Source: Megalonaias nervosa (Eukaryota > Mollusca > Bivalvia > Unionida > Unionidae). Taken from it: a stretch of 64,000 nt of DNA. This document shows, in pieces, positions 5,063 through 64,000 of this stretch. Under the pieces are notes generated by a model. That model did no database searches. It was not told the DNA's origin and saw nothing but the letters and a program-made list of their open reading frames with translations. Numbering within the stretch: the stretch's first letter is position 1; every line of letters begins with the position of its first letter. Both the position numbers and the translations under genes were made by a program. Location: the NCBI GenBank assembly GCA_016617855.1, contig JAECUM010003706.1, positions 1 through 64,000 of the forward strand, written 5' to 3'.

Positions 5063-5144
5063 AAATTGAAATATAGGCATCAGAATCAAGACAGACCTAT
5101 CCCAAATGCTCTTATTTCCAAGAGGTTAAGGTCACGGCCATGTA

Positions 5145-5661
5145 TTGAAAGCAATACATTTGTTGGGTTTCAAAAACCCTAGTCTGATTTTATTATGGAG
5201 AATTATGAACTATTCATGTCGAAGGGTTCTATATCACTCTTGGGTAATTTGGCCAATCCTATCCCTATTAAAATTTTTAAGGGATACAGGAGCTTCTCAG
5301 TCTTTTATTATCAGGTACTTTGCCTTTTTCTGAGAAGTCCTGTTCTAATGAAAGTGTTCTCATTCAGGGAGTAGAGTGCAGCTTTGTTAATGTTCCTCTC
5401 CATTCTGTAAATTTGTCATCAGACTTAGTTTCAGGACCTGTGACAGTCGGCATAGTATCTACTTTACCTGTTGAGGGCATTCATTTGTTACTAGGTAACA
5501 ACCTAGCTGGAGACAAAGTTGTGGTTAATCCACTTGTAACTGACAAGCCTTCTTTGGATCAGAATGTTGATCCAATTGAAAAAGAATACCCTGATTTATA
5601 CCCAGCTTGTGCAGTTACTAGAGCTATGGCAAGGAAAGCTCTTGAGAATGATTTTGATTAG
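5145..5661 (+). pseudogene. Aspartic protease region of the Gmr1-like element
   Basis: The retroviral-type protease active site reads LRDTGASQSFII, with DTG encoded at 5283-5291. The catalytic triplet is intact. The frame is lost about 40 nt later and continues in another frame at 5320-5661, with a plausible C-terminal protease half (GIHLLLGNNLAGDKV). A linker toward integrase follows. The enzyme would cut the Gag-Pol polyprotein, but the frameshift disables it. Confidence 0.75.
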
Positions 5662-5797
5662 GAAAGTATTCCTTTAGCTGACACATGTATTGGTCAGGCT
5701 ACTGATGAGGTCACTTTCACTCCTTGTTTGGATCAATCAAAAGGTATTGATCACAGTGATCCTCTTTTAACTACTCATTCTCTTTTATCTAATCAGG

Positions 5798-6660
5798 GTG
5801 TTTAAGCAACAATCACTTGTTGTCGAACAGGAAAAAGATCCTGAGATCTCCTGTTTGTTTCAGAGGGCCATTAGTGAAACTGAAGCCACTGAAGTACCTG
5901 TCTGTTATTTCATTAAAAATAGAATTCTTATGAGAAAATGGAGACCTCCCGAGGTACCTGCTGGTGACGAGTGGTCAGTAAACTATCAGATTCTAGTTCC
6001 AAATCTTACAGACAAGAAATACTTAGTTTGGCCCAAGAAACTCCTCTGGCTGGTCATTTAGGGATTAATAAGACTTATCACAAGATCTTAACTCACTTAT
6101 ATTGGCCAAAAATCAAAAGTGATGTTTGTAAATTTTGTAGATCTTATCATACTTGTCAAACAGTAGGAAAACCCAATCAGAAGATACCTAAGGCTCATCT
6201 GCAACCTATTCCTGCGTTTGACGAAACATTTAGCAGAATTATGGTAGATTGTGTTGGTCCCTTACCTAAGACCAAGTCAGGCAACCAATATTTGTTGACC
6301 ATTATGTGTGCATCAACAAGATTCCCAGAGGCAATTCCTTTGAGGAATATTAAAACCAAAACTATAGTAAAAGCTTTGATAAAGATTTTTTTACTCAATT
6401 TGGTCTTCCCAAATCTGTCCAATCGGATCAAGGGTCAAATTTTATGTCTGGAATTTTCCAGCTAGTTATGCTTGAATTTGGCACTCAGCAATTCAAGTCA
6501 AAAGTGAAATTATGGTTTCACAAAACTTTACTTGAGAGAAGTTTTGAGTCTTGTAATAGAGTTCTTTCTCTCTGGCTCATTCTTCAAAATTTTCTTCAAA
6601 TTAGATTTTACGGCCCTTACAAAGTAAAGAAGAAAATGAATGAGTTAAATTATAATAATA
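5798..6660 (+). pseudogene. Integrase of the Gmr1-like element, upstream of RT
   Basis: The N-terminal part (5798-6061, with ILMRKWRPPEVPAGDEW) shifts frame near 6000. It continues at 5971-6465 as the zinc-binding domain (GHLGINKTYHKIL ... CRSYHTCQ, in which one expected cysteine position is Tyr). The catalytic core follows, with the first Asp in IMVDCVGPLPKTKSGN. After another frame change the second Asp sits in SDQGSNF (about 6420-6445). The stretch 6480-6600 looks shortened or rearranged. A GPY/F-like motif (FYGPYKVKKK, about 6605-6640) marks the C-terminal domain. Its position before RT is what classifies the element. Confidence 0.82.
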
Positions 6661-6682
6661 GTATTCTGATGTAAATAAATTA

Positions 6683-7440
6683 ATGGAGTACTATTATACT
6701 GAAAGAGATAGCCAAGTAAATCCTGCAATTAACTTAGTTGTACCTGTCCCACCAACTGAGGATTTAAGTGAAGTAATTCAATCGGACTCTACTGATTTTG
6801 GAGCGACAAATCTTTGGAATTCAAAAATCATGAAAAATCTGGACCAGAAACTTTTACATTTGCAACAACAGGAAAAGAATGAACTTAAACAGCTATTATT
6901 TGAATATGAGCACTTATTTTGAGATATTCCTACGGGGACAAACAAAATTTGTCATGATGATGAAATTGTGAATTCTAAACCTGTGAAACAACACCCTTAC
7001 AGGATGAACCCTCTCAAAGAGGAATACTTGAAAAAGGAAATTCAGTATTTATTGGAGAATGATTTCATAGAGCCCAGTAAAAGTGATTGGAGTTCACCAT
7101 GTATACTTATTCCGAAACCAGATAAAACTTTCCATATGTCCACTGATTATAGGAAGGTGAACAGTGTGACAAAAACAGATTCATTTCCATTGCCAAGAAT
7201 CGATGACTGTATTGATAAAATTGGAAATGCCAAGTATGTCACCAAATTTGACCTTCTGAAAGGATTTTAGCAAAATCCACTAATGGAAAGGGCAAAGGAA
7301 ATTTCGGCATTCATGACTCCAGATGGACTTTATCAATATGAAGGGTTTGCCAAGTACTTTTCAACGTTTGATGAATATGATTACCTCTGGTCTAGATAAT
7401 TGTGATGCTTACATCGATGATGTCATCATCTACAATGACA
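6683..7440 (+). pseudogene. Reverse transcriptase of the Gmr1-like element
   Basis: A linker (6683-6919) ends in a TGA. The RT core follows: FIEPSKSDWSSPCILIPKP, then STDYRKVN, then YVTKFDLLKGF, where a TAG at 7267-7269 interrupts it. A frameshift falls between about 7330 and 7370. The catalytic box AYIDDVIIY (about 7408-7434) is intact. RT copies the genomic RNA into DNA, but the nonsense codons and frameshift make this copy inactive. Confidence 0.87.
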
Positions 7441-8178
7441 CCTTGAAAGAACATCTAGCAACGATTCGGAAATTCTTTGACAGACTTAGTGATGCAAGTT
7501 TGACAATTAACTTATCTAAAAATGAGTTCTGCCGTGCTTGTGTAACATTTCCAGGACATATTAAGGTCAAGGCTATCTCTGAATTCCCTGTGCCTGTCAG
7601 TAAAAAGCAACTGATGCGATTTTTAGGTGTGGCTGGATACTATCGAAAATTTTGTTCCAATTTTTCTAATATTGCTGAACCTCTGACAAACTTATTGAGC
7701 AAGAAAAACAAGTTTCTTTGGACTGATAAATGTCAGGAGGCTTTTGATAGGTTAAAGGCCATACTTAAAAATGCGTCGGTTCTTACTGCTCCAAATTTCA
7801 ATCAACCATTTAAACTATCTGTTGATGCAAGTGATGTTGGGGTTGGAGCAGTATTGGTTCAAGAAGATAGAAATGATGTTGATCATCCAGTTGCTATTTC
7901 TCTAAGAAATTAAATAAGCACCAAACAAATTACTCAACAATCGAGAAGGAATGTTTGGTTTTAATATTGGCATTACAGCATTTTGAAGTTTACATTAGTT
8001 CAGCTCCTTCTCCAGTTGTTGTTTAGTGATCACAACCCCCTTACTTTCATCAACAAGATGAAAAATAAAAATCAAATATTATTAAGGTGGAGTTTGTTTT
8101 TATAAGAATATAATCTTGACATCAGGCACATCAAGGGAAAAGATAATTTGATTGCAGATGCACTTTCCCGTGTTTAGA
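7441..8178 (+). pseudogene. RT connection and RNase H domain of the Gmr1-like element
   Basis: The open stretch to 7911 carries the gypsy RT thumb/connection (FLGVAGYYRKFCSNFSNIAE) and the RNase H start (KLSVDASDVGVGAVLVQED). A TAA at 7911-7913 and further breaks follow. Other frames carry DHNPLTF-like sequence, LLRWS, and the C-terminal HIKGKDNLIADALSRV, ending at 8178. The pol region stops here, just before the 3' purine tract and LTR. Nothing resembling a second integrase lies between, which confirms the unusual domain order. Confidence 0.87.
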
Positions 8179-53900: not shown

Positions 53901-54249
53901 TGTTGATGAATAAAACACATCTGAATAGGCTACAAAGACGAAAGCAAGAACCATTGAGGGTGGACTATGCAAATTCCCACACAAACCTATGGAATGGTGA
54001 AATCATACTTTGTGGCGAATTGTCAGTGAAAGGAAGAATAAATAAATATTTTAATTTTCTTAATGATTAATACTTCATACTTTGTTCACTGATCATAAGG
54101 TGTGAAGATGGCATTCCTGTGCATCTAATATTAAGAAAATTACCACAATACGAAACTTACCCCTGGTTCAGATCGTTTTCTGTATTATCAAGCCATACTC
54201 GAACATGAAAGGCATTGCCTTCCCGGACTTTTGTAAATATATCATCCAT
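14548..54249 (-). CDS. ILK: Integrin-linked kinase gene (ILK), first six coding exons
   Basis: ILK is the cytoplasmic scaffold of focal adhesions. It binds PINCH through N-terminal ankyrin repeats and parvin and integrin tails through a pseudokinase domain. Six minus-strand exons, all with AG/GT borders and compatible phases, give about 205 codons that follow the ILK family order. The exons carry, in order, the [12 protein letters not shown] start, ankyrin repeats ([62 protein letters not shown]), the linker ([14 protein letters not shown]) and the lead-in to the pseudokinase domain ([10 protein letters not shown]). Introns are about 17.7, 7.4, 1.6, 2.2 and 10.2 kb, with a sixth running left. 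No kinase-domain exon was found down to position 1, so the 3' half should be outside the window. All exons are intact. Confidence 0.96.
15352..16145. repeat. Diverged tandem repeat, about 130-145 bp unit, six copies
   Basis: Units start near 15352, 15489, 15631, 15773, 15903 and 16046. Each opens with gattttcaaga(t)ggc and continues with a tggtcatactggatgt-like segment, an accaactagacat segment and catgtcaatatgacc. Copies are old and uneven. Two more partial units lie at about 16490-16760 and one at about 26345-26460, so this is a dispersed intronic satellite family. Confidence 0.8.
16490..16760. repeat. Two further units of the 130-145 bp tandem repeat
   Basis: The second unit (from about 16650) is well preserved: gattttcaaaatggctgcca and gtggtcatactggatgtcaa. 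The first is more decayed. Same family as 15352-16145. Confidence 0.65.
17510..17906 (-). pseudogene. pogo/Tigger-type DDE transposase fragment
   Basis: The minus-strand frame 17645-17890 contains [15 protein letters not shown] and [19 protein letters not shown]. These resemble the first catalytic block of pogo/Tigger (CENP-B-like) transposases, typically N-x-D-E-T-P-x-x-F-D followed by TTG-x-EK. The next region downstream (17510-17640) carries a PKE ... MLLQWIKE piece from the same domain behind a stop. There is no start, DNA-binding domain or later catalytic residues, so it is a relic. Confidence 0.72.
17804..18290. repeat. Segmental duplication, copy A
   Basis: This segment recurs at 18551-19013 in the same orientation. 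Shared landmarks include ctcttctggccttcac, gattttattttctc-aaatcttct, attgtgtcactttca, ttcaaaattccagt-aatacc and ggcttctatgtgcttgg. It includes the end of the Tigger fragment. The copies differ by many substitutions and indels. Confidence 0.8.
18551..19013. repeat. Segmental duplication, copy B
   Basis: This is a direct copy of 17804-18290 shifted by about 750 bp. Its end coincides with the left terminus of the TIR element at 19014. The duplication may therefore predate that insertion. Confidence 0.8.
19014..21027. mobile_element. Non-autonomous TIR DNA transposon with TA duplication (Tc1/mariner-pogo type)
   Basis: The left end reads CAGTGTGACCCCGCTATAAC. The right end, read inward on the minus strand, is CAGTGTGACCCCTCTATAGC. 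The inverted termini match at about 20 of 22 positions. Both ends are flanked by TA (19012-19013 and 21028-21029), the target of Tc1/mariner and pogo elements. No transposase is recognisable inside 2014 bp, so it depended on a related source or has lost its gene. Confidence 0.82.
21953..21990 (+). repeat. Solitary Tigger-like terminus
   Basis: The sequence tacagtggaacctcattaat is the classic form of a Tigger/pogo terminal inverted repeat preceded by TA. I could not find the partner terminus, so the element is either truncated or too decayed to delimit. Confidence 0.55.
21991..24795. other. ILK intron 5, no further gene seen
   Basis: Open frames here (for example 22888-23133 and 23860-24201, plus) are AT-rich, lack family motifs and overlap each other. 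Nothing else stands out apart from the solitary Tigger terminus on its left. Confidence 0.5.
24796..24876 (-). CDS. ILK: ILK coding exon 5 (linker)
   Basis: The exon contains [18 protein letters not shown], matching the conserved ILK linker that follows the ankyrin domain. The acceptor is attttgcag and the preferred donor GTAAGT (24795-24790). An alternative GT three bases earlier is possible. Confidence 0.93.
24907..26024. mobile_element. Possible MITE-like element with TAGCTGCCAAC termini
   Basis: TAGCTGCCAAC at 24907-24917 is inverted at 26014-26024 (gttggcagcta). A similar terminus (tatgccaacccctaagcgtg) recurs near 35598. The 1.1-kb interval has no coding capacity and contains a long hairpin at 25079-25158. 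The termini are short and no target duplication is clear, so the boundary is tentative. Confidence 0.35.
25079..25158. repeat. 80-bp hairpin (32-bp arms, 16-nt loop)
   Basis: The left arm (25079-25110) begins tgtgttgcac and includes cttgcaccttctg. The right arm (25127-25158) is its reverse complement at 28 of 32 positions. The size and imperfect pairing resemble either a microRNA precursor or the palindromic core of a foldback element. ILK intron 4 holds it. Confidence 0.75.
26345..26460. repeat. Dispersed unit of the 130-145 bp repeat
   Basis: The unit reads acaaaattttcaaattagct, cagtggacatattggatgtc and agaagtcttttagtcaaatc, in the order of the units at 15352-16145. It is a single degraded copy in ILK intron 4. 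Confidence 0.55.
27121..27217 (-). CDS. ILK: ILK coding exon 4 (ankyrin repeat)
   Basis: The exon encodes [20 protein letters not shown] and [12 protein letters not shown] plus one base. This is the last ankyrin repeat and the start of the linker. The acceptor is tttcatgcag and the donor GTAAGC. Confidence 0.96.
27218..28302. other. ILK intron 3, nothing else seen
   Basis: AT-rich with no open frame of interest. The tandem repeat at 28303 follows. Confidence 0.5.
28303..28456. repeat. Three-copy tandem repeat, about 50-55 bp
   Basis: Three units share caagg-atggactagtactgctgccaga and aagagctgacaaa. The third has drifted furthest. It lies in ILK intron 3. Confidence 0.85.
28790..28885 (-). 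CDS. ILK: ILK coding exon 3 (ankyrin repeat)
   Basis: This phase-0 exon of 32 codons includes [20 protein letters not shown], a hallmark ILK ankyrin repeat. Its acceptor is ttaatttcag and its donor GTAACC. Confidence 0.97.
29571..29860. repeat. Left terminal repeat of the DIRS-type element
   Basis: The inverted counterpart is at about 34770-34990. Key shared runs are ggaatattaacctgct, gggcagtaactcttgcc and cttgataccaccaggtg. The segment 29823-29851 corresponds to the outermost part of the right repeat. Confidence 0.78.
30150..31113 (-). pseudogene. Tyrosine recombinase of the DIRS-type element
   Basis: The N-terminal part (31113-30853) carries a [20 protein letters not shown] segment. The middle (30971-30693) has the diagnostic [15 protein letters not shown] stretch, comparable to the LTLKTVFLLALAS motif of DIRS recombinases. 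The C-terminal end (about 30330-30170) reads [20 protein letters not shown] and [16 protein letters not shown], the usual last block of that family. Frames change several times and a TAG interrupts the C-terminal block, so it is inactive. The plus-strand frame at 30136-30333 is only its antisense. Confidence 0.75.
31227..31810 (-). pseudogene. RNase H region of the DIRS-type element
   Basis: The fragment [16 protein letters not shown] lies at about 31735-31690. A later frame gives [19 protein letters not shown] and [16 protein letters not shown] (31400-31240), the conserved tail of DIRS RT/RNase H proteins. Overlapping frames show that several frameshifts have accumulated. Confidence 0.75.
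32025..32652 (-). pseudogene. Reverse transcriptase of the DIRS-type element
   Basis: The minus frame 32652-32212 carries [20 protein letters not shown] and DWSLLTQF. It continues with [20 protein letters not shown], where DIRS elements typically have SLDLQDAYFHIPIH. The stretch after 32330 is frameshifted. The fingers and the first catalytic Asp region are recognisable, but the downstream catalytic box is not clearly preserved. It would have copied the element RNA and is now inactive. Confidence 0.82.
32809..33760 (-). pseudogene. Gag-like region of the DIRS-type element
   Basis: This is assigned only by position upstream of RT on the same strand. Open frames at 33048-32809 (with [16 protein letters not shown]) and 33754-33509 are broken, and no zinc knuckle is visible. 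Treat it as an inferred domain. Confidence 0.45.
34770..34990. repeat. Right terminal repeat of the DIRS-type element
   Basis: This is the inverted counterpart of 29571-29860, with ctttgcatat, ctaatattcctaatgta and caaaggagaaag at its ends. Divergence from the left copy is obvious by eye. Confidence 0.78.
34991..36281. other. ILK intron 2 remainder
   Basis: AT-rich with no gene. A terminus resembling the candidate element at 24907 occurs near 35598. The frame at 35844-36134 shows no family signal. Confidence 0.45.
36282..36447 (-). CDS. ILK: ILK coding exon 2 (ankyrin repeats)
   Basis: The acceptor is tttag at 36448-36452 and the donor is GTCTGT. The exon completes the split glycine codon and adds 55 codons containing two ankyrin motifs, [15 protein letters not shown] and [15 protein letters not shown]. 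The donor is GTCTGT and not GTAAGT, so it is relatively weak. Confidence 0.96.
37341..37640. repeat. Minisatellite, about 60-bp unit, five copies
   Basis: Units share ccagtccaaaagctcctgtc, cataa-agtta-ttttctgtg and aaacaagtg-ccctgagtgaa. On the minus strand the repeat happens to be open (37561-37370), giving a repetitive peptide. That is a by-product of the repeat and not a gene. It is in ILK intron 1. Confidence 0.9.
38385..40350 (+). pseudogene. THAP-domain DDE_4-type transposase, broken
   Basis: Exon 1 (38385-38604, 73 codons) encodes a full THAP zinc finger. Its ligands are C5, C10, C67 and H70 (VCSVHF), and W47 is conserved. The intron runs to the acceptor gcag at 39241-39244. Exon 2 starts [20 protein letters not shown] after joining in phase. 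It then has stops and frameshifts near 39532 and 39630. The catalytic part follows: [10 protein letters not shown] (to 39880), then [12 protein letters not shown] from 39905. The first catalytic Asp position is Asn (AAC, 39956-39958). The second Asp motif (VVMAD) is followed at once by a TGA, and the Glu motif is HVERVIEL. Such enzymes cut and paste the element, but this copy cannot. Confidence 0.85.
40694..40738. repeat. (AG)n microsatellite
   Basis: An AG run of about 45 bp lies inside the ISL2EU-like element, between the two convergent genes. Confidence 0.95.
41029..41105. repeat. (CT)n microsatellite interrupting the PHD-type end of the YqaJ gene
   Basis: A pure CT array of about 77 bp. 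On the minus strand it appears a few codons after the start of a PHD-finger-like sequence, replacing the remainder of that domain. Confidence 0.95.
41106..42180 (-). pseudogene. YqaJ-type nuclease with PHD finger, internally deleted and broken
   Basis: A first exon (42180-41980, donor GTAACA) encodes [20 protein letters not shown] and [14 protein letters not shown], the usual N-terminal part of these proteins. After an intron with a GA repeat, the second exon (about 41862-41127) encodes the YqaJ core, with [12 protein letters not shown] and [14 protein letters not shown] interrupts it, and [14 protein letters not shown] follows. The protein ends in a PHD-like [15 protein letters not shown] start, truncated by a stop and the CT array. 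The SWIM-like part and front of the nuclease expected between the exons are missing, so the copy is internally deleted. It is convergent with the transposase. Confidence 0.8.
41921..41950. repeat. (GA)n microsatellite in the YqaJ intron
   Basis: A GA run of about 30 bp between the two recognised YqaJ exons. Confidence 0.93.
42440..42565 (+). repeat. tRNA-derived SINE next to the ISL2EU-like element
   Basis: The sequence aaatggttagcattccaat (A-box-like) is followed 25-30 nt later by gtgggttggaatcctacc (B-box-like). A body ctaccttgagaagggcactt comes next. It starts 14 bp after the transposon target duplication. This is a different family from 1-262. Confidence 0.6.
42566..48112. other. ILK intron 1, largely featureless
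   Basis: No gene was found in these 5.5 kb. There is a two-copy 29-bp direct repeat at 44165-44222 (cagagagattcttaaatacc), a short (AT)n at 45337-45357, and an A-rich, low-complexity stretch at 46110-46730. Open frames through the A-rich stretch are compositional. Confidence 0.55.
48113..48440 (-). pseudogene. RNase H relic of a Gmr1-like gypsy element
   Basis: Minus-strand frames give [40 protein letters not shown] and [13 protein letters not shown]. They match, in order, the RNase H end of the element at 2672-9240 (VDASDVGVGAVLVQED; HIKGKDNLIADALSR). It has stops and frameshifts and no LTR nearby, so it is an isolated 3' pol fragment of the same or a sister family. Confidence 0.77.
48952..49431 (-). 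pseudogene. hAT-type (DUF4371/ZMYM6-like) transposase relic
   Basis: Three overlapping minus frames carry consecutive parts of one protein: [20 protein letters not shown], then [20 protein letters not shown], then [20 protein letters not shown]. The DESTDI block is the hallmark of the DUF4371 part of domesticated and free hAT transposases. Two frameshifts and missing ends show it is dead. Confidence 0.77.
49500..49915. repeat. Three-copy tandem repeat, about 137 bp
   Basis: Units share gatatttacaa-tg-agaatt, ggctgaaagacc-c-tgatgtacatgtt and ttcaaagactttgactggtgg. The last unit is incomplete. Confidence 0.8.
50247..50407. repeat. Two-copy direct repeat, about 80 bp
   Basis: Two adjacent units run from cgacgatttttagaccaaac to gtgcgtcaatttacgtacc, with a few differences. 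Confidence 0.9.
51777..51951. mobile_element. hAT-type MITE with 8-bp target duplication
   Basis: This 175-bp element has ends CAGGGGTCTCAAACTC and, inverted, CAGGGTCTCAAACTC. It is bracketed by a perfect 8-bp repeat ATTTACAC (51769-51776 and 51952-51959). Terminal CAGGG with 8-bp duplications is typical of hAT elements. There is no coding capacity. Confidence 0.93.
51960..52914. other. ILK intron 1, AT-rich, with (TG)n at 52852-52869
   Basis: No gene was seen. The only structured feature is a short TG microsatellite. Confidence 0.5.
52915..53175 (-). repeat. tRNA-derived SINE, copy 3
   Basis: The minus-strand tRNA-like head contains ctagtggttacagctt and ggttcgaaccatgg. The body is the same as at 1-262, including ctcttaatgctgagcgcc and gtcacattatcccaacacca. 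This is the best-preserved full-length copy of the family here. Confidence 0.78.
54161..54249 (-). CDS. ILK: ILK coding exon 1
   Basis: The start codon is at 54249-54247, and the exon encodes 29 residues beginning [12 protein letters not shown]. This is the conserved ILK amino terminus, which settles the start. It ends after two bases of a glycine codon at the donor GTAAGT (54160-54155). Confidence 0.96.
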
Positions 54250-54526
54250 TTCTCCGAAATAGTTCTCGCTGAATATGAGTCACAGATGAATGTGTTCTAC
54301 ACAATATTCCCTGCTATGGACCCCCTCCAATGTCCCAACTGACTTAAAGCGTCGTTCTCCAACTAATCCTCGGTGCAGCCTATACTTATGAACAGAGAAT
54401 AAAAGCTTTAAATGCCCTATATCATTTCCACCTGGTTACATAATCGCAAAATCCATAAACAATTCAGATAAAAATAATAATATTCCTCAATGATTTGCGG
54501 CCCAAACCAGAAGCGCCCATTTTTGT

Positions 54527-54599
54527 AATGACGATAAAGCGCGAGAAAGCAACGAGAGTCGGTACGACTCTCGTTGCTTTCTCGCGCTTTATCGTCATT
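54527..54599. repeat. Perfect 35-bp inverted repeat with 3-nt loop
   Basis: The left arm, 54527-54561, starts aatgacgataaagcgcgaga. It is repeated inverted without mismatch at 54565-54599 around the loop GTA. It is unusually GC-rich for its surroundings and lies about 280 bp upstream of the ILK start codon, probably in or near the promoter or 5' UTR. Confidence 0.97.
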
Positions 54600-55460
54600 T
54601 ACTTAGGTGGCAGGGTACAGTTTCGTATATTGGCTCCTGTGCAAATTTCTTAACTTAAGGCTATGGTGTGAATTTTTCAGCTATTATTGTTTACTAATTA
54701 AAGATATGGATATATTTGTGAACTAGATGTTTCGGGCTTGTGTTGTTTTTGAAATTGATGTCTTGCATATACATCTTCCATAGTTACTCTGCAGTATGTT
54801 GATAGTGAAATACCAATAGTCGGCTAGCAAGAAGAGCTAGCCTCCCATACCCGTAAACACATGGCTTTGGGGCAAATAGAATATCTCAAATACGGCTTGG
54901 ATGACAACTATTTTCAATTGCATCAGCCTGTTTAGTACACATTGTTTTGCAGAACTGTCATCTAGGAAAAGGTCTTGTGTTTGCACTGTGAGCATCACAT
55001 GGTGTCAAAAATGACCTTTGGACATGAAAATTGCAGGTATAAATTTGGGGTTGGGGTGCATAAACTTCTGCTATGAACTGCCATTGACTTCTCTGGTCAA
55101 GTGGATAATATTCTTATGCTTTGTTCTAATATAGGTATCTAAAAATATGAACCATTTTGATCTCACTTGTGTATTTGATTTTTTATGATTTTTTTTATAC
55201 TAGGTCACTGATTGCGGCATTAAATTTGTACATAAAAACTGGCCCCTGCCCCTTATCGTCTTTATCGTAGGGTAAAAAAACACCCATATTCCGTTGATGC
55301 TGTAGCGGATAAGAAGATAGATCTCTGTCTTGAGGAAAGATCATTAATATGTTTTATGCCTGTGCATCATTTTATTGTAACTGTTATTTCTTTATTTTTA
55401 AATATATCAATAAAAAAATCAGGAGCCTTCCACATATCGATCAACATGAACATATAATTG

Positions 55461-55510
<50 letters not shown>

Positions 55511-55744
55511 TTTAATAATAATAATGCAGCAGGGGTGGGGGTGGGGGTTCACCGACCTTTTTGGGGCCTTAAAAAAAATACTGAGATCTCGTATTAAAAA
55601 CGCCCATCCGATCCTTCCACGACTGCACCACGAGGACCGCCCTCTTGTAGGAGGTGTCCATGGGGGTAGGAGGGGTGTTATAAATTAAATGACTTATCAC
55701 TGATGTGTAATTAAATCGTTGTTTTAACAACAATAATAATAATA
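54600..55744. other. Gene-free stretch with an (AAT)n microsatellite
   Basis: It holds an (ATA/AAT)n array (about 55462-55510) and G-rich sequence just after it, and no gene. The left end of the Polinton-like region should lie here or further left, but I could not identify a terminal inverted repeat. Confidence 0.5.
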
Positions 55745-56825
55745 ATGAGTGATTCCGCTCAGTCTATGGAATCGCGTACAGCTAAACTAACTCGACAACG
55801 ACTAGAGGCAATTAAGAAATATCTCCCGTCTGTCATTCTGTCGAACAGCAGCTACAACAGCGTCAGTAAGCTCAAGTGGAAATAACAGAAGTTACAGAAC
55901 AAGTTATTTAAAGCAATTGTAGAACCAACCAAAAAATTTGTTACAGCAACCGAGGCAACTCAAAAAGCTCTTGAAACATTACCTGCTGATATTGATGGTC
56001 GTCTTCAACCCGCTCGACCGGCACTCCAGCAACGTAAAGTTCAAACATCACCAGTGGAGTCAACTCTGGGTGTTAGAACTTACATAAACGATACATTTGC
56101 TGAGGAAGGTGTTGCTACGATCAGGGTTAAAGAACAAATACTTGATATTGTTGCATTTGGATGGGGTCGTACGGATTAATATGTAAATCCCGAATATATT
56201 TATAGTCTAAAAGCTGATGATTGGGTTAAAGATGTATATAGCGTTGCTAATAATACTCAACAAGTCAAATCTAAAGAAGATATAAATTTTGAAATCTTTA
56301 GTAGAGGAACATGCTGCAAGAGTAAGACAAGAAAGGGGAAAAAATGTGAAGAAATGAAATGTAAAATTAAAAAAAGCAGCAGAAGAAAAGAGAAAATCAG
56401 GCATAAAACCTGTATCTGAAACAAGGAAGGAAAAAGGAAAAGCTGCGTCAAAGGCGCTCCAGCAGCGCGCTCTGGAACCATAACCAGATTCGCATCACGA
56501 ATAGTCAACTGAAGAAAAAATCGGAGAGGGTCTAATCTGTGATGTCTTGAACATCGTGGTTGTAAAATACAAGGTGGTAATATAATCCCTAAATCGCAGG
56601 AGATTCTTGATAAACTTTGTCCCAATTACATCCTCGCTGACGTTGATCGACCAGAAATTCGGATTAGTGGAAGACGAGCCGGCAATAATTCCTCCGAAAT
56701 CATCAATGAAGTTGCTGAGATTTTCCAGCGTTTATTCACAGATGGTGTCATGGACAGACACGTCTATCGGACATTGATCGATGCTATTATTGACGACGAC
56801 GACACAATTAGATCGGTGATAACAA
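55745..56825 (+). pseudogene. Broken ORFs at the left of the Polinton-like region, unidentified
   Basis: An ATG at 55745 opens a frame (MSDSAQSMESRTAKLTRQRL) that runs, with TAA stops, to about 56180. It then continues through Lys/Glu-rich sequence and, in another frame, ends at 56828 with a segment including RPEIRISGRRAGNNSSEIIN. The reading is protein-like: few stops over long stretches and normal amino acid use. I do not recognise the family. Position just before a capsid-like ORF suggests a virion or assembly protein of the element, which is an inference. Confidence 0.45.
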
Positions 56826-56831
56826 AATAAC

Positions 56832-57215
56832 ATGATCATATATATTGCCCATGGTAGACCAGTAATGGTCAGGGTGATAAATTCACGATTACCAGTATAT
56901 AAAGTTAATTACGGTGGTCCCAAAGCAATCCCGATTGCAAAACCATTCTTAATGAAAGCCATCGATGTCGTTCGTGATAAATTTAATTGCGCCGTTGGTG
57001 ATGTTGCTGGTAAAGCATTCAGAGACAGATTCGCACGATTAATACTACGAAACCTGCAGCCAGTAAAACTGATTAGCATCGAAGTGATGCCAGCAAATAT
57101 CAGTAAAATAATAAATCTAGCTGCAAAAGAACGACTAAACGAATTAGCTGGCATGCCGTCGTCCAGTGATCTTCGACTGACAAAACAAGCTGATGAGAGA
57201 AAAAAATATATATAA
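56832..57215 (+). CDS. Hypothetical protein in the Polinton-like region
   Basis: This is an intact frame of 127 codons with protein-like composition (GGPKAIPIAKPFLMKAIDVV; FRDRFARLILRNLQPVKL). It has no recognised motif, signal peptide or membrane segment. The ATG at 56832 is the first in frame, but the gene could start later. It follows the broken frame ending at 56828 almost without gap and precedes the capsid-like ORF by 69 bp, so the three look like one block. Confidence 0.5.
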   Translation: MIIYIAHGRPVMVRVINSRLPVYKVNYGGPKAIPIAKPFLMKAIDVVRDKFNCAVGDVAGKAFRDRFARLILRNLQPVKLISIEVMPANISKIINLAAKERLNELAGMPSSSDLRLTKQADERKKYI

Positions 57216-57284
57216 CTGCAAGTCTGATAGCAGGAAGTGGGCTGACTCGACGTCGTTTTAAACAGCTGTTATTATAATAATAAA

Positions 57285-57826
57285 ATGTTCAAGCATGTAT
57301 CTGACTCCTCATGTGACATGGACGCGCCAGTCCTCAAGGATTAATCAAGGCGAGATTAGCGGTATTATTCTTATGACGCACGTGTACCTGACGCACATGA
57401 ACGAATCTAACTACAAATCCAAGATACAAGCAGATATGTCTTGCCCGCCGAGGCATTCATTGCGACAGAAGATCAACTTTTGAAAGCTGATAATACAAGA
57501 TATGGAATTGGAGACCGAGTTGGTTTTGGTAACAATGGTGTTATGGCCCTATTTAACAGTGCCATATACATGATTTATGGAAAGAATATTGAATCATGTC
57601 TCGAAAATGTTGACTTTGATAGGTCTCGCAAGATATTCGATGATCCCTCCATTATGTTCGCCAAAGATTCCACTGATCATCCTGTGAGCCGTAACATAAC
57701 AATGTATACTGCTGCAGATGCAGTCGCATCGATGAATGAAAATTTTAACCAAGGATTCTCAGCACGTTGATCAATGTTATACGGCGATGAAGAATTTCAT
57801 GTGTAATTCCACTGTCACCTATCTTT
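57285..57826 (+). pseudogene. Major-capsid-protein-like ORF (double jelly-roll type), broken
   Basis: The frame from ATG 57285 has three stops before 57420, is then open to 57770, and is followed by further stops. The open part contains YVLPAEAFIATEDQLLKADN, then FGNNGVMALFNSAIYMIYGK, and ends NQGFSAR. This pattern (NNGIMxLFSxIxY followed later by NxGFxxR) is what I associate with the major capsid protein of Polintons, adintoviruses and related elements. The length is far below a full capsid protein, so it is truncated. The assignment is by motif memory, without alignment. Confidence 0.5.
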
Positions 57827-57927
57827 GGTTTCTGCAGAAATGTTAGAAAAGTTATTTTCGGTGCTAAACACCAAGTCGTACTAGTTTGAAAAGCCACCGA
57901 CAACGATGCAATTTTGCGAGTAGTGTA

Positions 57928-58083
57928 TTGGGGTACTATAGCCCTCATCATGCCAAAGAAGGAAAATCAGCCTGGGGCACTATGGCCCCACGATTTGTAG
58001 GCCAAAAACCACAGCCTGGGGCATTATAGCCCCAATGGAAATTTTGTATAGCGACTAGCACACGCTGCGCCTGTATAGCGCCA
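57928..58083. promoter_or_regulatory. Array of GGGGC...GCCCC palindromes with TATAGC cores
   Basis: Imperfect palindromes ttggggtactatagccctca (57928-57947), tggggcactatggcccca (57973-57990) and tggggcattatagcccca (58017-58034) are spaced 44-45 bp apart. A variant gcgcctgtatagcgcc lies at about 58067-58082. Regular spacing of palindromes suggests protein-binding sites or a terminal/subterminal repeat of a mobile element. Confidence 0.6.
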
Positions 58084-58104
58084 AGAGGAATGGAACGGGT
58101 AGGG

Positions 58105-58160
58105 TGACGTCACGGTACTGGTCATTGGCAACAATGTAGCAAGGTAGTACTGTGACGTCA
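58105..58160. promoter_or_regulatory. Two perfect CRE-type palindromes (TGACGTCA)
   Basis: TGACGTCA occurs at 58105-58112 and 58153-58160, 48 bp apart, in similar contexts (ggtgacgtcacggtact and gtactgtgacgtcatgcc). It matches the consensus for CREB/ATF-family factors. Function is inferred. Confidence 0.6.
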
Positions 58161-58272
58161 TGCCACCTGTGTCATTGCTATAGACGAACACGAATCAGTC
58201 GCGTTCGTGTTTTAGTAGAGTATGTTTTATATATTCGTTTTTTTCCCATAGATTAATGAACATCAATCTATC

Positions 58273-58386
58273 CTACACAAATTTATAAAATCGATTAAAC
58301 AAATTTTTAGGGAAGAGAGAGAATAAATATCTACACAAATTATAAAATCGAATAAAATTTTCTTTTAGGCAAGAAAGAATTAATAT
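58273..58386. repeat. Two-copy direct repeat, about 57 bp
   Basis: Copies start ctacacaaat at 58273 and 58331. They share tataaaatcga, aatttt and ttaggcaaga-type segments. They lie just downstream (minus sense) of the histone-type processing site. Confidence 0.75.
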
Positions 58387-58393
58387 CTTTTCG
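58386..58393 (-). promoter_or_regulatory. Histone-downstream-element-like motif of the minus gene
   Basis: CGAAAAGA on the minus strand lies exactly 12 nt after the stem-loop at 58406-58421. The same octamer at the same spacing follows the stem-loop of the plus gene (59609-59616). In histone pre-mRNA a purine-rich element at this place pairs with U7 snRNA. Confidence 0.7.
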
Positions 58394-58405
58394 AGGCAAT
58401 GAAGT

Positions 58406-58421
58406 GGCCCTGAAAAGGGCC
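58406..58421 (-). terminator. Histone-type mRNA 3' stem-loop of the minus gene
   Basis: The minus strand reads GGCCCTTTTCAGGGCC, a 6-bp stem with loop TTTC. It fits the metazoan histone stem-loop consensus GGYYYUHHUHARRRCC at every position, with CAAC before it and AC after it, as in many histone genes. It starts 27 nt after the stop codon of the 58449-58682 gene. Confidence 0.85.
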
Positions 58422-58448
58422 GTTGTTTGTTATGTTAACATCATTCCG

Positions 58449-58682
58449 TTAACATAGAGGGCATCGCATAGGTCTTCTTCTCTTCCTCAAACTTCGTCTA
58501 ACCTCTGGTCCATAAACCAGAACTCTCTTCAGACAGCCTTGTCTTTCCACATAAGTCCTTCTTTTCCAAATGCTTGTCTCGGTGATCCTAACGATTCTCC
58601 ATGCTGATCTGACATACATGGGTAAATCCGTACGGAAAAACAACGACGATACGAAAGTAGACGATTCAACGTTGGTCCACAT
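58449..58682 (-). CDS. Small Arg-rich protein with a histone-type 3' end
   Basis: An intact frame of 77 codons starts MWTNVESSTFVSSLFFRTDL and ends in a strongly basic RRSLRKRRRPMRCPLC tail. The composition suggests a nucleic-acid-binding protein, for example a virion core protein condensing DNA, but I recognise no family. It is not a histone: no histone-fold sequence appears in any frame. A TATA-like box (58724-58733, minus sense) lies about 42 bp upstream of the start. The 3' UTR is very short and ends in a histone-type stem-loop. It is divergent from the 58915 gene and shares a promoter region of about 230 bp. Confidence 0.7.
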   Translation of the reverse strand: MWTNVESSTFVSSLFFRTDLPMYVRSAWRIVRITETSIWKRRTYVERQGCLKRVLVYGPEVRRSLRKRRRPMRCPLC

Positions 58683-58914
58683 CTTTGTGACGAGAACAGG
58701 TGAAGGGAATGAAGTGATCCGCGTTTATTTATAGTGGAAGACCGGATCGAAACGGATTGAAATTGTTCACCAATCCCAACACGCGTTACAAAATTCAGTC
58801 ACTTCGCGGAGTCTGTCTTCCAATCCGAAGAGAGCTACCTGTTTCGTCACATTCCCTATATAGGTGCGCTAGCGTCTGTGCGCAGTGAATCGATGCGGCA
58901 TTGTTTTGTGAAAC
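58683..58914. promoter_or_regulatory. Divergent promoter of the two histone-end genes
   Basis: It contains a minus-sense TATA box (tttatttata, 58724-58733), a plus-sense TATA box (ctatatag, 58856-58863) and two CCAAT boxes (58770-58774 and 58820-58824). Divergent gene pairs with TATA and CCAAT boxes are also the layout of many metazoan histone genes. Confidence 0.7.
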
Positions 58915-59546
58915 ATGACGGAAACTAAGAAGACAATGAATTGGGGTGCACCGGCTGTGGAGACGAAAAGCGATGGCATAGCAGCGGCTACCAAAGTTAA
59001 CACAGCGCTACTTCCAGAAGAGGTTGATTTCAACTGGGATTTAGTAGATTTTTTCTCTTCTTCGCAAGAATTTGTTCCGGTACCAGTACCTTCGCCACCT
59101 TCTCCTTCTTTACCACACGTCGACGATTTTAAACAAAGACAGAAAGAATAACTGGAGAAATTTTTACAGCAGCAGAAAGAGGCAGAACAAGCATTTCTCC
59201 TTCAACAGCAACAGCGAGAAGAAGAGGCAGAAGGAAACGACAGGAAGAAGAAGCAGTAGAGAAGAAACAAAGGCTAGAAGAGAAGGAGAACAGTGAACCT
59301 CAAACGGTAACGGTACTCTTGGACATTTTGGCCGAGTTAAGAAGTCTGAAACAAATGTATCAGACTTCTTTATTACGACCCAAGAGAAAAAGACCTTCCC
59401 GAACCAAACAGCCTAACCCTGTTACTACACCAGAGATACCACCCCTAGTGATTTCTACTAGATCATTGACAAGAGCAAGTCCAGAAGTAGGCCTTGGCCT
59501 TGGCAAAGGCTTAAGGCAGTTAAAGCGGATTGCTTCTCGTTCCTGA
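58915..59546 (+). pseudogene. Coiled-coil/basic protein with a histone-type 3' end, frame-broken
   Basis: From ATG 58915 the frame encodes an N-terminal part with EEVDFNWDLVDFFSSSQEFV and a proline-rich run. A TAA lies at 59149-59151. In the same frame a Gln/Glu-rich coiled coil follows (LEKFLQQQKEAEQAFLLQQQ). The frame then shifts by one base around 59215-59235 and stays open to 59546. That part contains AELRSLKQMYQTSLL and a basic C-terminus (RPKRKRPSRTKQ; GKGLRQLKRIASRS). I do not recognise the family. A TATA box lies about 52 bp upstream of the start and a histone-type stem-loop 34 nt after the stop. Confidence 0.65.
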
Positions 59547-59580
59547 GTTTGTTCTAAGGAAAAAAAAACAAACACCCAAT

Positions 59581-59596
59581 GGTCCTTTTCAGGGCC
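59581..59596 (+). terminator. Histone-type mRNA 3' stem-loop of the plus gene
   Basis: GGTCCTTTTCAGGGCC fits the histone stem-loop consensus GGYYYUHHUHARRRCC completely, with one G-U pair in the stem. It is preceded by an A-rich stretch with ccaat and followed by actca. It lies 34 nt after the stop codon at 59544-59546. Confidence 0.85.
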
Positions 59597-59608
59597 ACTC
59601 ACTTCTTT

Positions 59609-59616
59609 CGAAAAGA
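59609..59616 (+). promoter_or_regulatory. Histone-downstream-element-like motif of the plus gene
   Basis: CGAAAAGA, extended to cgaaaagagaga, starts 12 nt after the stem-loop, identical in sequence and spacing to the minus gene. Purine-rich elements such as AAAGAGAG at this distance are U7 snRNA targets in known histone genes. Confidence 0.7.
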
Positions 59617-59857
59617 GAGACTATTCATTTTGCCAAAATCAATTAAAACTTCAAAATCCCTTCTTTAACCCTATGATGTGCGTGTTGTGAGTGTATGAGT
59701 GTAGGTCCTTATTATTCTAAACAATCAAAACCAAGAGACACTTACGTTTTTTCAGTCTGGTCTATTCTGGTACAAATTTTTACAATTCAATATCACAACA
59801 TAACACAACAGAACACTTTTAAAAAGTTCATAGCCTTCTTCTGTGTCTTTTTTTTTT

Positions 59858-60298
59858 TCACTCTCTCTGTTTTTTCAATTTCTTCACTTTTACACTTTTT
59901 TCCTCTTCTTCTTCTTCTTCCTCACATTTTTCTCGTCTTCTTTTCTTTTCTGTCTTCTCTTTCTGAACGTGACGGGGTTCTTCCTTTGCCGAGGGCACCT
60001 CTTTTTCTTCTTCCTCCTCATGCTCCTGTTGTTTCTTAGAGCACTCTGAAGACCAATGTCCTTTCTCTTTACAATGATAATAGATATCTTGACTTTTGTC
60101 TCTTCTGACACTGGTCTTGCTTTTATGACGATCTGGACATTCTGTAGCCCAATGCCATTTCTTCTGACGGATATAGCAAGTATCATGACTTTTATCTCGA
60201 AAGGAGGGAGAGTAGTCCGTCGGTTTGTCTGAAGAAAACTTTCGTATGACACCTCGCAAAGCTCTAATCAGAAGTTCGATCTGTGTGGGTTCTTCCAT
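59858..60298 (-). CDS. Zinc-knuckle-like protein with acidic/basic C-terminus
   Basis: An intact frame of 146 codons. After an N-terminal helix (MEEPTQIELLIRALRGVIRK) come two CCHC-type knuckle patterns. CYIRQKKWHWATEC has Arg where the second Cys belongs. YYHCKEKGHWSSEC has Tyr where the first Cys belongs. The C-terminal half is alternating Glu and Lys/Arg, likely a coiled or disordered tail. Such knuckles bind nucleic acid in Gag and in some virus-like elements. With each lacking one ligand the zinc affinity is doubtful. A TATA box (60352-60360, minus sense) lies about 53 bp upstream. It is divergent from the polymerase gene. No histone-type stem-loop follows it. Confidence 0.65.
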   Translation of the reverse strand: MEEPTQIELLIRALRGVIRKFSSDKPTDYSPSFRDKSHDTCYIRQKKWHWATECPDRHKSKTSVRRDKSQDIYYHCKEKGHWSSECSKKQQEHEEEEEKEVPSAKEEPRHVQKEKTEKKRRREKCEEEEEEEEKSVKVKKLKKQRE

Positions 60299-60433
60299 CG
60301 TGCTGATCGGTTTGAGAGTGAAATGAATACTGAGAGGGAAGTCAACAGCCCTTTATATATGCACTAAGCCTAACATGGATATATAGGGGTCCATGGCGTT
60401 TCAAATGTAGTCATTTGACTTTTCGCAGTCAAG
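60299..60433. promoter_or_regulatory. Divergent promoter of the zinc-knuckle and polymerase genes
   Basis: The 135-bp interval carries two TATA-like boxes back to back: tttatatat (60352-60360), usable leftward, and atatata (60379-60385), about 49 bp before the polymerase start. The layout copies that of the other divergent pair. Confidence 0.65.
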
Positions 60434-63400
60434 ATGAAACGATCGCATCATTTCGTAAAGAAAGGAGAAGAAAGTAAGAGGCAGAAACGTGATTTATCGC
60501 CTCGCACAGTAGCTGAAGTCTTGGCTCAAATTCATGCCGGCGATTTTGAAGATGAGATGAGTGAACCAGAATCTAAGCCCAGAGTGTCTACACTCAGTCA
60601 AAGTCCATCACTACCAGTAAACCCTGAAAAGTACTACCACATTCGAGAGACGGGCAAACGCTCCTCCAGAAAATTTAGAACCACGGCCTACACGTACACG
60701 GTGAAGTTTAAAGATTTCAAGTCCGACGTACCGTTGGAGAAAGCAGAAGGGTTCATAACCGATGTGTGGGATTCTTTGTTAACCACACTGAAACGGCAAT
60801 GTCAAGCCAAAGAAGACGATCGCTTGAGACTTTCCATTCATCACGACAATCTGAAGTCCCCCGTTTGGATCGAGTTTAGCAGCCCAGCAGAACTGACACC
60901 TTCCAAAGTCATCGACAAGATTCAACACGTACAACAATCCAACGACAAGTTTCACATCACCGACGGAAAAGCGACACTATTCATGACCCACGTGTCTCTT
61001 CCCCAAGGGACGGGACGCAAAACAGTGATCTTGGTAGACAATCTTCGCAGCACCAAGCGCAGCATCGTTCAAATTAACAACCCTCAAGACCAGATGTGTT
61101 TAGCCCATACCATCGTGGTGGGACGAACGTATGCCGACAAAAACGACACGACAGAATGGAAAGGGCCTGGAAAACTATTCAACAATCGGACCAAACCAAA
61201 CAACGAAGAGAAGCAGAACTCCTGTTACAGCAAGCGGAGATATCCAAAGACAGTCCCTGCAGTATTCCTGAAATGCAAAAATTGCAAGACGTCTTGGCTC
61301 CACGCTACACCTTGAAAGTACACCCTCAAGAAGTGTGCGGACCTCTGTTGTTTCGAGGAAAAGATTTCAAAGACGGAAAATACATTCACGTCTATCATCA
61401 CGATGAACATTTTGATGCCATTACCAGTATCACTGCATTCCTGTCATTCAGTTATTACTGTGAGAAATGTGACTATGGCTATAACAATCGAGAGCAACAC
61501 AAGCATTGCGCATCGAAATGCTCAGGATGTTTAGCCTCTAAACCTTGTCTGGACAAAGGACAAGAACGAGTGCATTGCTCTGCTTGTCAGCGCACGTTTT
61601 TCAGCCCTGCCTGTTACCAACAACATCTAAAGACGCAAGGTTCACAGCGGAAATGTGCTTGCCAACTCTTGAGATTGTGCCCTACTTGTGGACAATGCAT
61701 ATGTACCAATAGTGCCAAGACTCACGTCTGTTCAGGAAAGAAGCAATGTCACATTTGTCGCCAAGTCGTGGACTTGGAACACCAATGCTACATTAAAAAA
61801 TACCAATCCAAACATGAAGAAGAAGAAGATAATGACCAGAAGAAAGGCCATTTCATCTTTTTCGATTTCGAATGTATGCAAGAGACTGGCATTCACATTC
61901 CTAATTTCTGCATGGCTCACCGAGCGTGTGAGAAGTGCATCTAAGAGCCTATCCTGACTCATTGCCCTCACTGTAGCAAGATTCCTGGAGGACGTGAAAA
62001 AATCTTTCGGGGACCGAACACGCTAGCCGATTTCGCCCAATGGATCTTAAACCCTATTGACGAAACATGGAGCCAAGAAGACATCGAACGTTACGGAGAT
62101 TGTCATCGCTATGCTACGGTGATGGCTCACAGTTTCTCGGGATACGATGGACAGTTTCTGTTGAGATACTATACGGAACAAAGTACCGAACGTCCGAAAG
62201 TAACTTTGAACGGAGCCAAAATCATTTCCATGCAAGTGGGTCAAGTGCAGTTTAAAGATTCGATGAGTTACTTGGCCATGCCTTTGAGTCGCATGCCTAA
62301 AACGTTTGGAATGACAGAAATGGCCAAAGGCTATTTTCTGCACTTTTTCAATACCGAATCCAATCAAAACACCGTTCTACCCCATTTGCCTGAGGCTCAC
62401 TACTACGACCCCGACAACATGCGTACCGAACAACGAGAAGCTTTCTACGCTTGGTACCAGACTCACGCCTCGGACCCTTTTGACTTTCAGGAAGAAATGT
62501 TAAAATATTGTCGTTCCGACGTGGACATTTTACGGCGTTGCTGTGGAAAATTTCGAGAACTGTTCATGTAACACGGAGGGATCGATCCTTTGAAAGAAGC
62601 CTGCACCATTGCCAAAGCGTGTTCCTTAGTGTATCGCCAACGATTTATGCCCGAAAACACCCTAGCTGTCATCAGTCCTCAAACAACCAATTTTGTCAAA
62701 CGTCAATACTCGGTCAAAGCCTTACGCTGGTTACATTACTTGTGTGACAAGGAAGACAAATGGATCCAACACGCTTGCAACGGAGGAGGCGAAAAAGCCA
62801 TCGGAAGGTATTCAGTAGCTGGTTGGGACTTGGAAAACCCCAAGATCGTGTACGAGTTTAACGGGTGCTTATTTCACGGATGTCCTATCTGCTACCTTCA
62901 ACGTAACACTAAAAATCAGTTTTTACAACGGACCATGGAAGACTTGTACCAGGCCACTTGTCAGCGGCGCTTGAAGTTAGAAGAGCAAGGATACCAAGTG
63001 GTAGAAATGTGGGAACACGAGTACGATCAGCGATTAAAAACCGATCCCGAGTTTAAGCGCATCGTGGAAAGTTACAAGCTGGTGGACCCACTAAACCCAA
63101 GGGACAGTTTGTACGGAGGACGGACGAATGCCACCTGTTTGCTATACCAAGCCGACGAAGAGAGAGGAGAAGAAATCAAATACTTGGACGTGTGTTCTCT
63201 GTATCCGTACGTGTGCAAATATTGTCACTTTCCCGCAGGGCACCCACAATTGCTGACGGAACACATCGACGTGGACAATATTCGACAATGCGAAGGATTG
63301 ATCAAATGTAAAGTCTTGCCTCCCACGTACTTGTACCATCCCGTTTTACCACATCATTGCCAAGGAAAACTGATGTTTCCCTTGTGTCGTACTTGTGCCG

Positions 63401-64000
63401 AAACGTGCGACCAAGACCAACCTTGTCAGCACACTCAGGAAGAACGCGCCTTGACGGGAACGTGGGTCAGCGTGGAATTGTTTAAAGCTCTGGACTTGGG
63501 ATACCAATTGTTAGAAGTGTACGAAATTTACCACTTTCCCAAGACAGAAAAATACTACAAGGGCGACGAGACTCAGAAAAGCATTTTTGCAGATTACGTG
63601 AATGCCTTTTTGAAACTGAAACAAGAAGCTAGCGGCTATCCTTCCTGCTGTCACACTCCCGAAGACCAAAAGAAATTTAAAGAGAAGTACTGGGAGCAGG
63701 AAGGCATCACTTTAGACCACGTCGAGAAAAACGAAGGAGGGCGATCGTTTGCCAAAGTTATGTTGAATTGTTTGTGGGGCAAAATGGCACAACGACCGTG
63801 TTTACCCAAGACGGAGTATTTGACAGAACCTTCCCGCTACTTTCAGATGATTCACGACAAAACCAAATACGTGAAACACGTGGACGTCCTTCGTGAGGAC
63901 TTGATCTTAGTTTATTACGAAGAAGAACTGGACTTTGTAGAAGCCGAGGAATTTGGAAATGTCATCATTGCGGCTTACGTGACAGCCTATGCTCGCTTAA
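60434..64000 (+). pseudogene. Protein-primed-type family B DNA polymerase (Polinton/Maverick-like), 5' part
   Basis: This would replicate the element. A long N-terminal region (60434 to about 61140) is followed by a frame change at the A-run 61139-61143. Next come a Cys/His-rich zinc region (61460-61790; CEKCDYGYNN, CPTCGQCICT, CHICRQVVDLEHQC), an exonuclease motif (FIFFDFECMQETGIH, about 61850), and the polymerase palm with a DxxSLYP block (LDVCSLYPYV, about 63187) and a motif-B-like KVMLNCLWGKMAQ (about 63757). In-frame TAA stops lie at 61942-61944 and 62569-62571. After 62572 the frame is open to the window edge. The YxDTDS block should follow beyond 64000. The order and the cysteine-rich insertion match Polinton-type polymerases. 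Confidence 0.85.

Follow-up and report, generated by a model that had tools for sequence, protein, structure and literature searches.

Small accessory genes of a Polinton/Maverick-type element in Megalonaias nervosa end in histone-type 3' processing signals

We analysed a window of 64,000 nucleotides from Megalonaias nervosa, near the right-hand end of which lie two small divergent genes (referred to here as the minus and the plus gene), a CCHC zinc-knuckle gene, and a family-B DNA polymerase gene (Table 1). Both small genes are followed by the same type of module, with the TAA stop on the minus side followed after 27 nt by the hairpin GGCCCTTTTCAGGGCC and, a further 12 nt on, by CGAAAAGA, and the TGA stop on the plus side (59544-59546) followed after 34 nt by GGTCCTTTTCAGGGCC and, again 12 nt on, by CGAAAAGA. 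Rechecking the sequence confirmed two observations of the original prediction, i.e., that both stem-loops agree with the histone consensus at 16 of 16 positions at these distances past the stops, and that the octamer stands at exactly 12 nt past each of them. The consensus GGYYYTHHTHARRRCC has these 2 matches and no others in the 64-kb window, against a chance expectation of 0.06, and two matches at once were seen in 0 of 100 shuffles of the window. With the Rfam model RF00032 (Histone3), the minus hairpin scores above the cut-off and is called a histone 3' stem-loop, and the plus hairpin scores below it (E = 0.0017 in a 14-kb search; bit scores in Table 1). Both parts of a histone 3' signal are present, namely a 16-nt stem-loop shortly past the stop (with the plus site under the Rfam cut-off) and a purine-rich element within the usual ~12-15 nt past the hairpin.

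Table 1 Features of the element in the window (positions are those of the 64-kb stretch)
Feature	Position	Strand	Basis or remark
Left terminal inverted repeat, enclosing the complete minus gene with its 3' module	57919..58923	.	outer end 57919, starts AG; inner limit approximate, 58873-58923
Minus downstream element CGAAAAGA	58386..58393	-	position common to copies
Minus stem-loop GGCCCTTTTCAGGGCC, histone-type	58406..58421	-	consensus match; RF00032 36.2 bits, cut-off 34
Minus gene, 77 aa, Arg-rich C-terminus, open in the window copy	58449..58682	-	median dN/dS 0.23, 667 pairs
Plus gene, first open piece, ends at an in-frame stop in the window copy	58915..59151	+	open frames
Plus gene, last open piece, other frame, predicted coiled-coil and basic C-terminal part	59133..59546	+	open frames, model of a relative
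Plus stem-loop GGTCCTTTTCAGGGCC, histone-type	59581..59596	+	consensus match; RF00032 25.4 bits, below cut-off
Plus downstream element CGAAAAGA	59609..59616	+	position common to copies
CCHC zinc-knuckle gene, same element	59858..60298	-	zf-CCHC 21.0 bits, cut-off 20.8
Family-B DNA polymerase gene, broken, continues past the window	60434..63999	+	DNA_pol_B_2 matches in two pieces

The minus gene is open in the window, whereas the plus gene, which had been described as running up to 59546, is present as a decayed copy broken into two frames. The minus protein has a median dN/dS of 0.228 (667 pairs, 47 open copies), with no pair above 1, and the minus gene is under purifying selection. Its product ends in an arginine-rich tail and has a predicted structure of mean pLDDT 49.6; neither this model nor that of the plus family is strong enough for a fold search. 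For the plus product, the structure model of a relative (mean pLDDT 66.8) contains a long helix at 68-153, and by eye the N-terminal part is acidic and the C-terminal part basic; on this model it resembles a coiled-coil protein whose C-terminal part is basic. Both products look like regulatory or DNA-binding helpers, although no family match backs this reading. The earlier suggestion of basic core proteins is not shown, as the arginine-rich tail of the minus product comes with no Pfam match and a poor model, and the plus product seems to be coiled-coil-like and basic in its C-terminal part. Replication-dependent histone genes encode histones, and Pfam found none among the minus product, the plus pieces, and one example each of three further families described below (fam3, fam4 and fam5).

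The most fitting label for what had been called a virus-like element is Polinton/Maverick, given its family-B polymerase (PolB), terminal inverted repeats, and a weak packaging-ATPase match, and the best explanation is that the window holds the left end of a Polinton/Maverick-type element of ~20 kb, i.e., an integrated DNA virus or virus-like transposon. The polymerase gene matches DNA_pol_B_2 at 90.2 and 47.9 bits (cut-off 25.8), which at the level of a family match is the protein-primed type of family-B polymerase expected of a Polinton. The contig runs 3.4 kb beyond the window and ends at 67431, with the polymerase remainder, two BIR-domain frames, and an ATPase-like frame in this part; the last of these matches FtsK_SpoIIIE (FtsK/A32-like packaging ATPase) weakly, at 20.1 bits, below the cut-off of 24. 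The two BIR (inhibitor-of-apoptosis) frames, at 500-1656 of locus L186 (contig C3107, past the window), lie between the polymerase and the ATPase-like frame. Related loci, as distinct from the window's copy, have an rve integrase above cut-off upstream of fam4 (L087) and a weak match to the adenain-like Peptidase_C5 upstream of fam3 (L107; 13.2 bits, cut-off 21.3). A scan of 54001-64000 that allowed up to two mismatches found no histone-type hairpin after the CCHC zinc-knuckle gene.

Terminal inverted repeats, as expected of a Polinton, were delimited by comparison with other loci. At the outer boundary, the match to the window ends at 57918-57921 in 14 of 29 other loci and at 57914 in one more, with none of these ends falling at a locus edge. 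On the inner side, L155 and L173 match the window only up to 58923 and 58873, respectively, and L172 and L173, which are inverted copies on one contig, share 99% identity over 1,922 bp and diverge at the minus gene's inner side. These boundaries and inverted copies place the minus gene in the terminal repeat, which is ~1 kb long in the window's type. Within the repeat, the stretch at 58128-58217 recurs several times, in steps of ~76 nt or more, in L172, L173, L179 and L181.

Spacing across the genome is consistent with this build. Places with the strict hairpin-plus-downstream module number 6,500 in the genome and 0 in a reversed control, and among the first 100 listed, on which the spacing analysis was done, 39 pairs lie within 26 kb. 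Seven of these 39 pairs are ~1.14-1.21 kb apart and divergent, corresponding to the minus/plus gene pair, and 11 are 19.3-20.3 kb apart and outward-pointing, corresponding to the two element ends. The gap between minus gene and polymerase, 1.75 kb in the window, is by eye 1.73-1.78 kb, again in divergent orientation, on at least seven other contigs (C33738, C11530, C3291, C10460, C50482, C3616 and C32310). By eye, the database protein P0023 seems to fuse the beginning of the plus gene with a portion of the polymerase gene, in line with a linkage of the two.

We also asked how the module fares in other copies, searching the window's own 2.19-Gb assembly, where a first look gave 7,069 candidates (not counted copies) for the minus gene and 17,931 such candidates for the polymerase part. 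A protein-fetched set (L152-L181, L152 being the window) consists of the best 30 of 150 hits with the minus protein alone, at 96-100% identity. Of these 30 loci, 26 have a perfect minus hairpin and the other 4 a single mismatch in it; of the 25 loci in which the plus gene was followed to its end, 19 have a perfect plus hairpin, 5 differ from it by one mismatch and 1 by two; and GAAAAGA is exact in 28/30 minus and 21/25 plus sites, with the others one letter off. In most copies the hairpin is also preceded by CAA and followed by AC. Nearly all of these loci have the module behind both genes, so the notion that it is absent from all other copies is refuted, although conservation among such close copies partly reflects shared descent.

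Loci fetched by one hairpin provide the other as an unselected partner, and their proteins are more diverged. As such a partner, the plus hairpin has no mismatch in 10 of 14 loci, one in 3 and two in 1, and the minus hairpin is perfect in 15 of 21, with one mismatch in 2; the minus hairpin is absent from its expected place in 4/21 unselected copies and in 3/50 of an overlapping set. For a comparison with four-fold sites, we used unselected copies that have the hairpin (44/48 minus, 34/34 plus) and pairs with a four-fold difference of at least 0.2, a choice that favours the contrast. In the minus gene (438 pairs), differences amount to 31% at four-fold sites, 5% in the hairpin and 5.7% in GAAAAGA, and in the plus gene (139 pairs) to 24%, 14% and 8%, respectively, a modest contrast. 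By these values the module differs less than four-fold sites between copies, with a strong case for the minus gene and a weaker one for the plus gene; copy counts are not independent, given shared descent, and a single element may enter the counts twice, once for each of its repeats.

Stem cells are paired in 272 of 282 and 223 of 234 instances in copies of the two genes. Covariation as proof of these stems was rejected after a recount of changed stem cells, in which those that break the pair (21) match those that keep it (18) in number. The 23 database protein relatives come from public assemblies whose hosts may be the same or near species; two database relatives read through stops into tails that fit the hairpin and GAAAA with one mismatch each, and 23 and 5 of 2000 shuffled tails do equally well, which makes for weak support.

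The module is not limited to the minus and plus genes. We considered, and rejected, the idea that host histones account for the top RF00032 hits: among the 75 best places (taken from the best first-look candidates), 47 loci carry a minus or plus gene match, and 21 of the other 28 carry one of two further families, fam3 (14) or fam4 (7), which leaves 7 unassigned. No H3 or H4 match was found among these 75 loci, and the two histone places with a hairpin lie outside them. In five loci (L107, L113, L125, L127 and L146) the last frame ends 14-27 nt ahead of the hairpin. The fam3 and fam4 loci were retrieved through the hairpin, so its presence in them is not independent evidence, and what counts is that it terminates genes of different kinds; for fam5 the hairpin had no such role as bait. 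Fam5 lies ~1.1-1.5 kb ahead of a fam3 or fam4 hairpin, with frames in L099, L120, L127, L135 and L146, and is followed by a variant hairpin in which the closing G-C pair is replaced by A-U, and then by GAAAAGAG. This variant is fully paired in L099 and L127, has one broken pair in L135, is also present in L069, L073 and L092 (where the hairpin alone was read), and scores 23-24 bits with RF00032, below the cut-off.

Judged by these matches, three further non-histone families of related elements (fam3, fam4 and fam5) end in the module, which brings the total to at least five. The original prediction of two products ending in the module is right for both, but the families that do so across related elements number at least five, not two. 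Five elements were listed with both ends and the plus module (C16, C154, C161, C181 and C192), and no further strict module was seen between their ends, so fam3-fam5 probably belong to related yet different Polinton lineages of the same genome. A match of one fam4 example to UL78 (22.4 bits, cut-off 50) was rejected and taken as coiled-coil likeness. Frames before fam3/fam4 in L120, L135, L146, L125, L127 and L099 by eye reflect long minisatellite or CA/TG tracts.

For the host's own histone genes, PF00125 gave 11 matches among 28 candidates in the genome, and four loci were fetched; the assembly seems to lack the main histone cluster or to have collapsed it. An H2A gene (L184) carries GGCCCTTTTCAGGGCC followed after 12 nt by GAAAAGA, one nt closer than in the window, and scores 37.8 bits with RF00032. 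In an H2B-like pseudogene (L183) the hairpin deviates at one position, and the two other fetched histone-fold matches have no such hairpin within the short stretches read. The comparison with host histone genes proposed at the outset has therefore yielded an identical hairpin and GAAAAGA in the H2A gene, which marks the element's hairpin and downstream element as being of the host's own type. No host U7 snRNA was found with the Rfam model among the 65 scored of 657,865 first-look candidates, and a U7-like pattern has 6 matches in the genome vs. 7 in a reversed control.

We favour, with a probability of roughly 0.8, the reading that the window holds the left end of a Polinton/Maverick-type element whose small accessory genes carry what appear to be working replication-dependent-histone 3'-end signals. 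In the histone 3' pathway, as outlined in excerpts of two papers, the hairpin serves SLBP, the downstream element serves U7 snRNP, and the RNA end lies 3-6 nt past the hairpin (PMC9756948, PMC1924863). Host SLBP would accordingly bind the hairpin of the element's messages, U7 snRNP would pair with the GAAAAGA downstream element, and the RNA would be cut a few nt past the hairpin. The messages would have no poly(A) tail, would rely on SLBP for export and translation, and would be confined to S phase, and the regulatory and coiled-coil proteins would be made while the host replicates its DNA; genes that lack the module, such as the polymerase, would take another 3' end. Capture of the host histone 3'-end pathway, as originally proposed, is supported for the signal itself, which is present in at least five families, is of host H2A type, and is conserved between copies; its functional steps are read from sequence, which suggests messages without a poly(A) tail, made in step with DNA replication.

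Polyadenylated transcripts have been described for some replication-dependent histone genes (in excerpts of PMC9756948 and PMC3661734), and the element's module could be put to a similarly bimorphic use, being processed in cycling cells while bulk transcripts are cleaved and polyadenylated downstream, like those of some histone genes in differentiated cells. We consider this unlikely: a single ATTAAA 96 nt past the plus stop could serve polyadenylation, but no AATAAA was found on the coding strand in the 900 nt past either stop.

The other two alternatives deny the module a role in RNA processing. In one, the hairpins would be DNA elements of inverted repeats that serve replication, packaging or transposition, with the histone likeness incidental. 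The position of the minus module inside the terminal repeat would suit such a role, as would the poor stem covariation and the 46-nt inverted repeat (78%) that the minus and plus modules form together. The plus module, however, lies outside the repeat, the hairpin is oriented along its gene in the copies examined, the non-palindromic loop and GAAAAGA are kept, the same hairpin and GAAAAGA occur in a host H2A gene, and genes of other families also end in the module, all of which leaves this reading very improbable. The resemblance to the H2A 3' end, along with the very high copy number, could alternatively reflect a histone 3' fragment that was captured once, multiplied passively with the element, and is functionless now. 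We give little credence to this scenario, since copies diverge less in the hairpin and GAAAAGA than at four-fold sites, with a strong contrast in the minus gene and a modest one in the plus gene, and since the module is common to several unrelated genes.

Under the preferred reading of histone-type 3'-end signals on Polinton genes, the element combines traits of known systems. With replication-dependent histone mRNA 3' ends (RF00032) it shares the hairpin, the spacing, the flanking CAA/AC in most copies, and GAAAAGA, whereas its genes are non-histone and belong to a mobile virus-like element. With Polinton/Maverick elements and adintoviruses it shares DNA_pol_B_2, the weak packaging-ATPase match, terminal repeats of ~1 kb, the ~20 kb between outward terminal modules and, in related loci, rve and the weak adenain-like match; unlike them, it has histone-type 3' ends on several genes, BIR-domain frames beside PolB, and a gene inside the terminal repeat. 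The adomavirus 'Histoid' genes, as presented in an excerpt of the source, encode histone-like proteins in a DNA virus (PMC11071296), so that both cases tie a DNA virus to histone biology; there, however, it is the protein that is histone-like, and here the RNA-end signal. Literature searches for the histone stem-loop, SLBP or U7 in viruses, Polintons, Mavericks and adintoviruses gave no such report among the matches listed, with subscription journals mostly outside their coverage. IMG/VR yielded no relative of the PolB piece, the plus family or the minus family, and neither an exact canonical histone hairpin GGCTCTTTTCAGAGCCAC nor a strict module on any contig; the bare hairpin is present in 68 IMG/VR stretches. 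No plus-family relative was found in GTDB genomes.

The histone stem-loop pathway is generally regarded as reserved almost entirely for histones. We lean towards the wider view that an animal Polinton lineage moved a whole set of accessory genes, from five families or more, onto the host pathway for replication-dependent histone mRNAs, with messages predicted to be non-polyadenylated, SLBP-dependent, and tied to S phase. If true, no other class of non-histone genes, whether of viruses or of cells, is known to us to have done so systematically before, and the pathway would be open to capture by a multicopy virus-like element for several unrelated proteins. The thousands of element modules in this genome might then compete with histone messages for SLBP and U7 snRNP, viral expression would be timed to S phase naturally and without a poly(A) tail, and the study of SLBP and U7 would gain natural non-histone substrates. 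Poly(A)-selected RNA-seq would also under-represent messages of this kind, and the gene class could thus escape the usual surveys.

Outside the element, several plus-strand frames at 55886-57770, just to its left, by eye resemble one decayed protein-coding gene, two pieces of which gave no Pfam match. Further left are an inverted repeat with perfect 35-bp arms around a 3-nt loop (54527-54599) and, at 4316-7913, frames that by eye resemble a gypsy-type retroelement.
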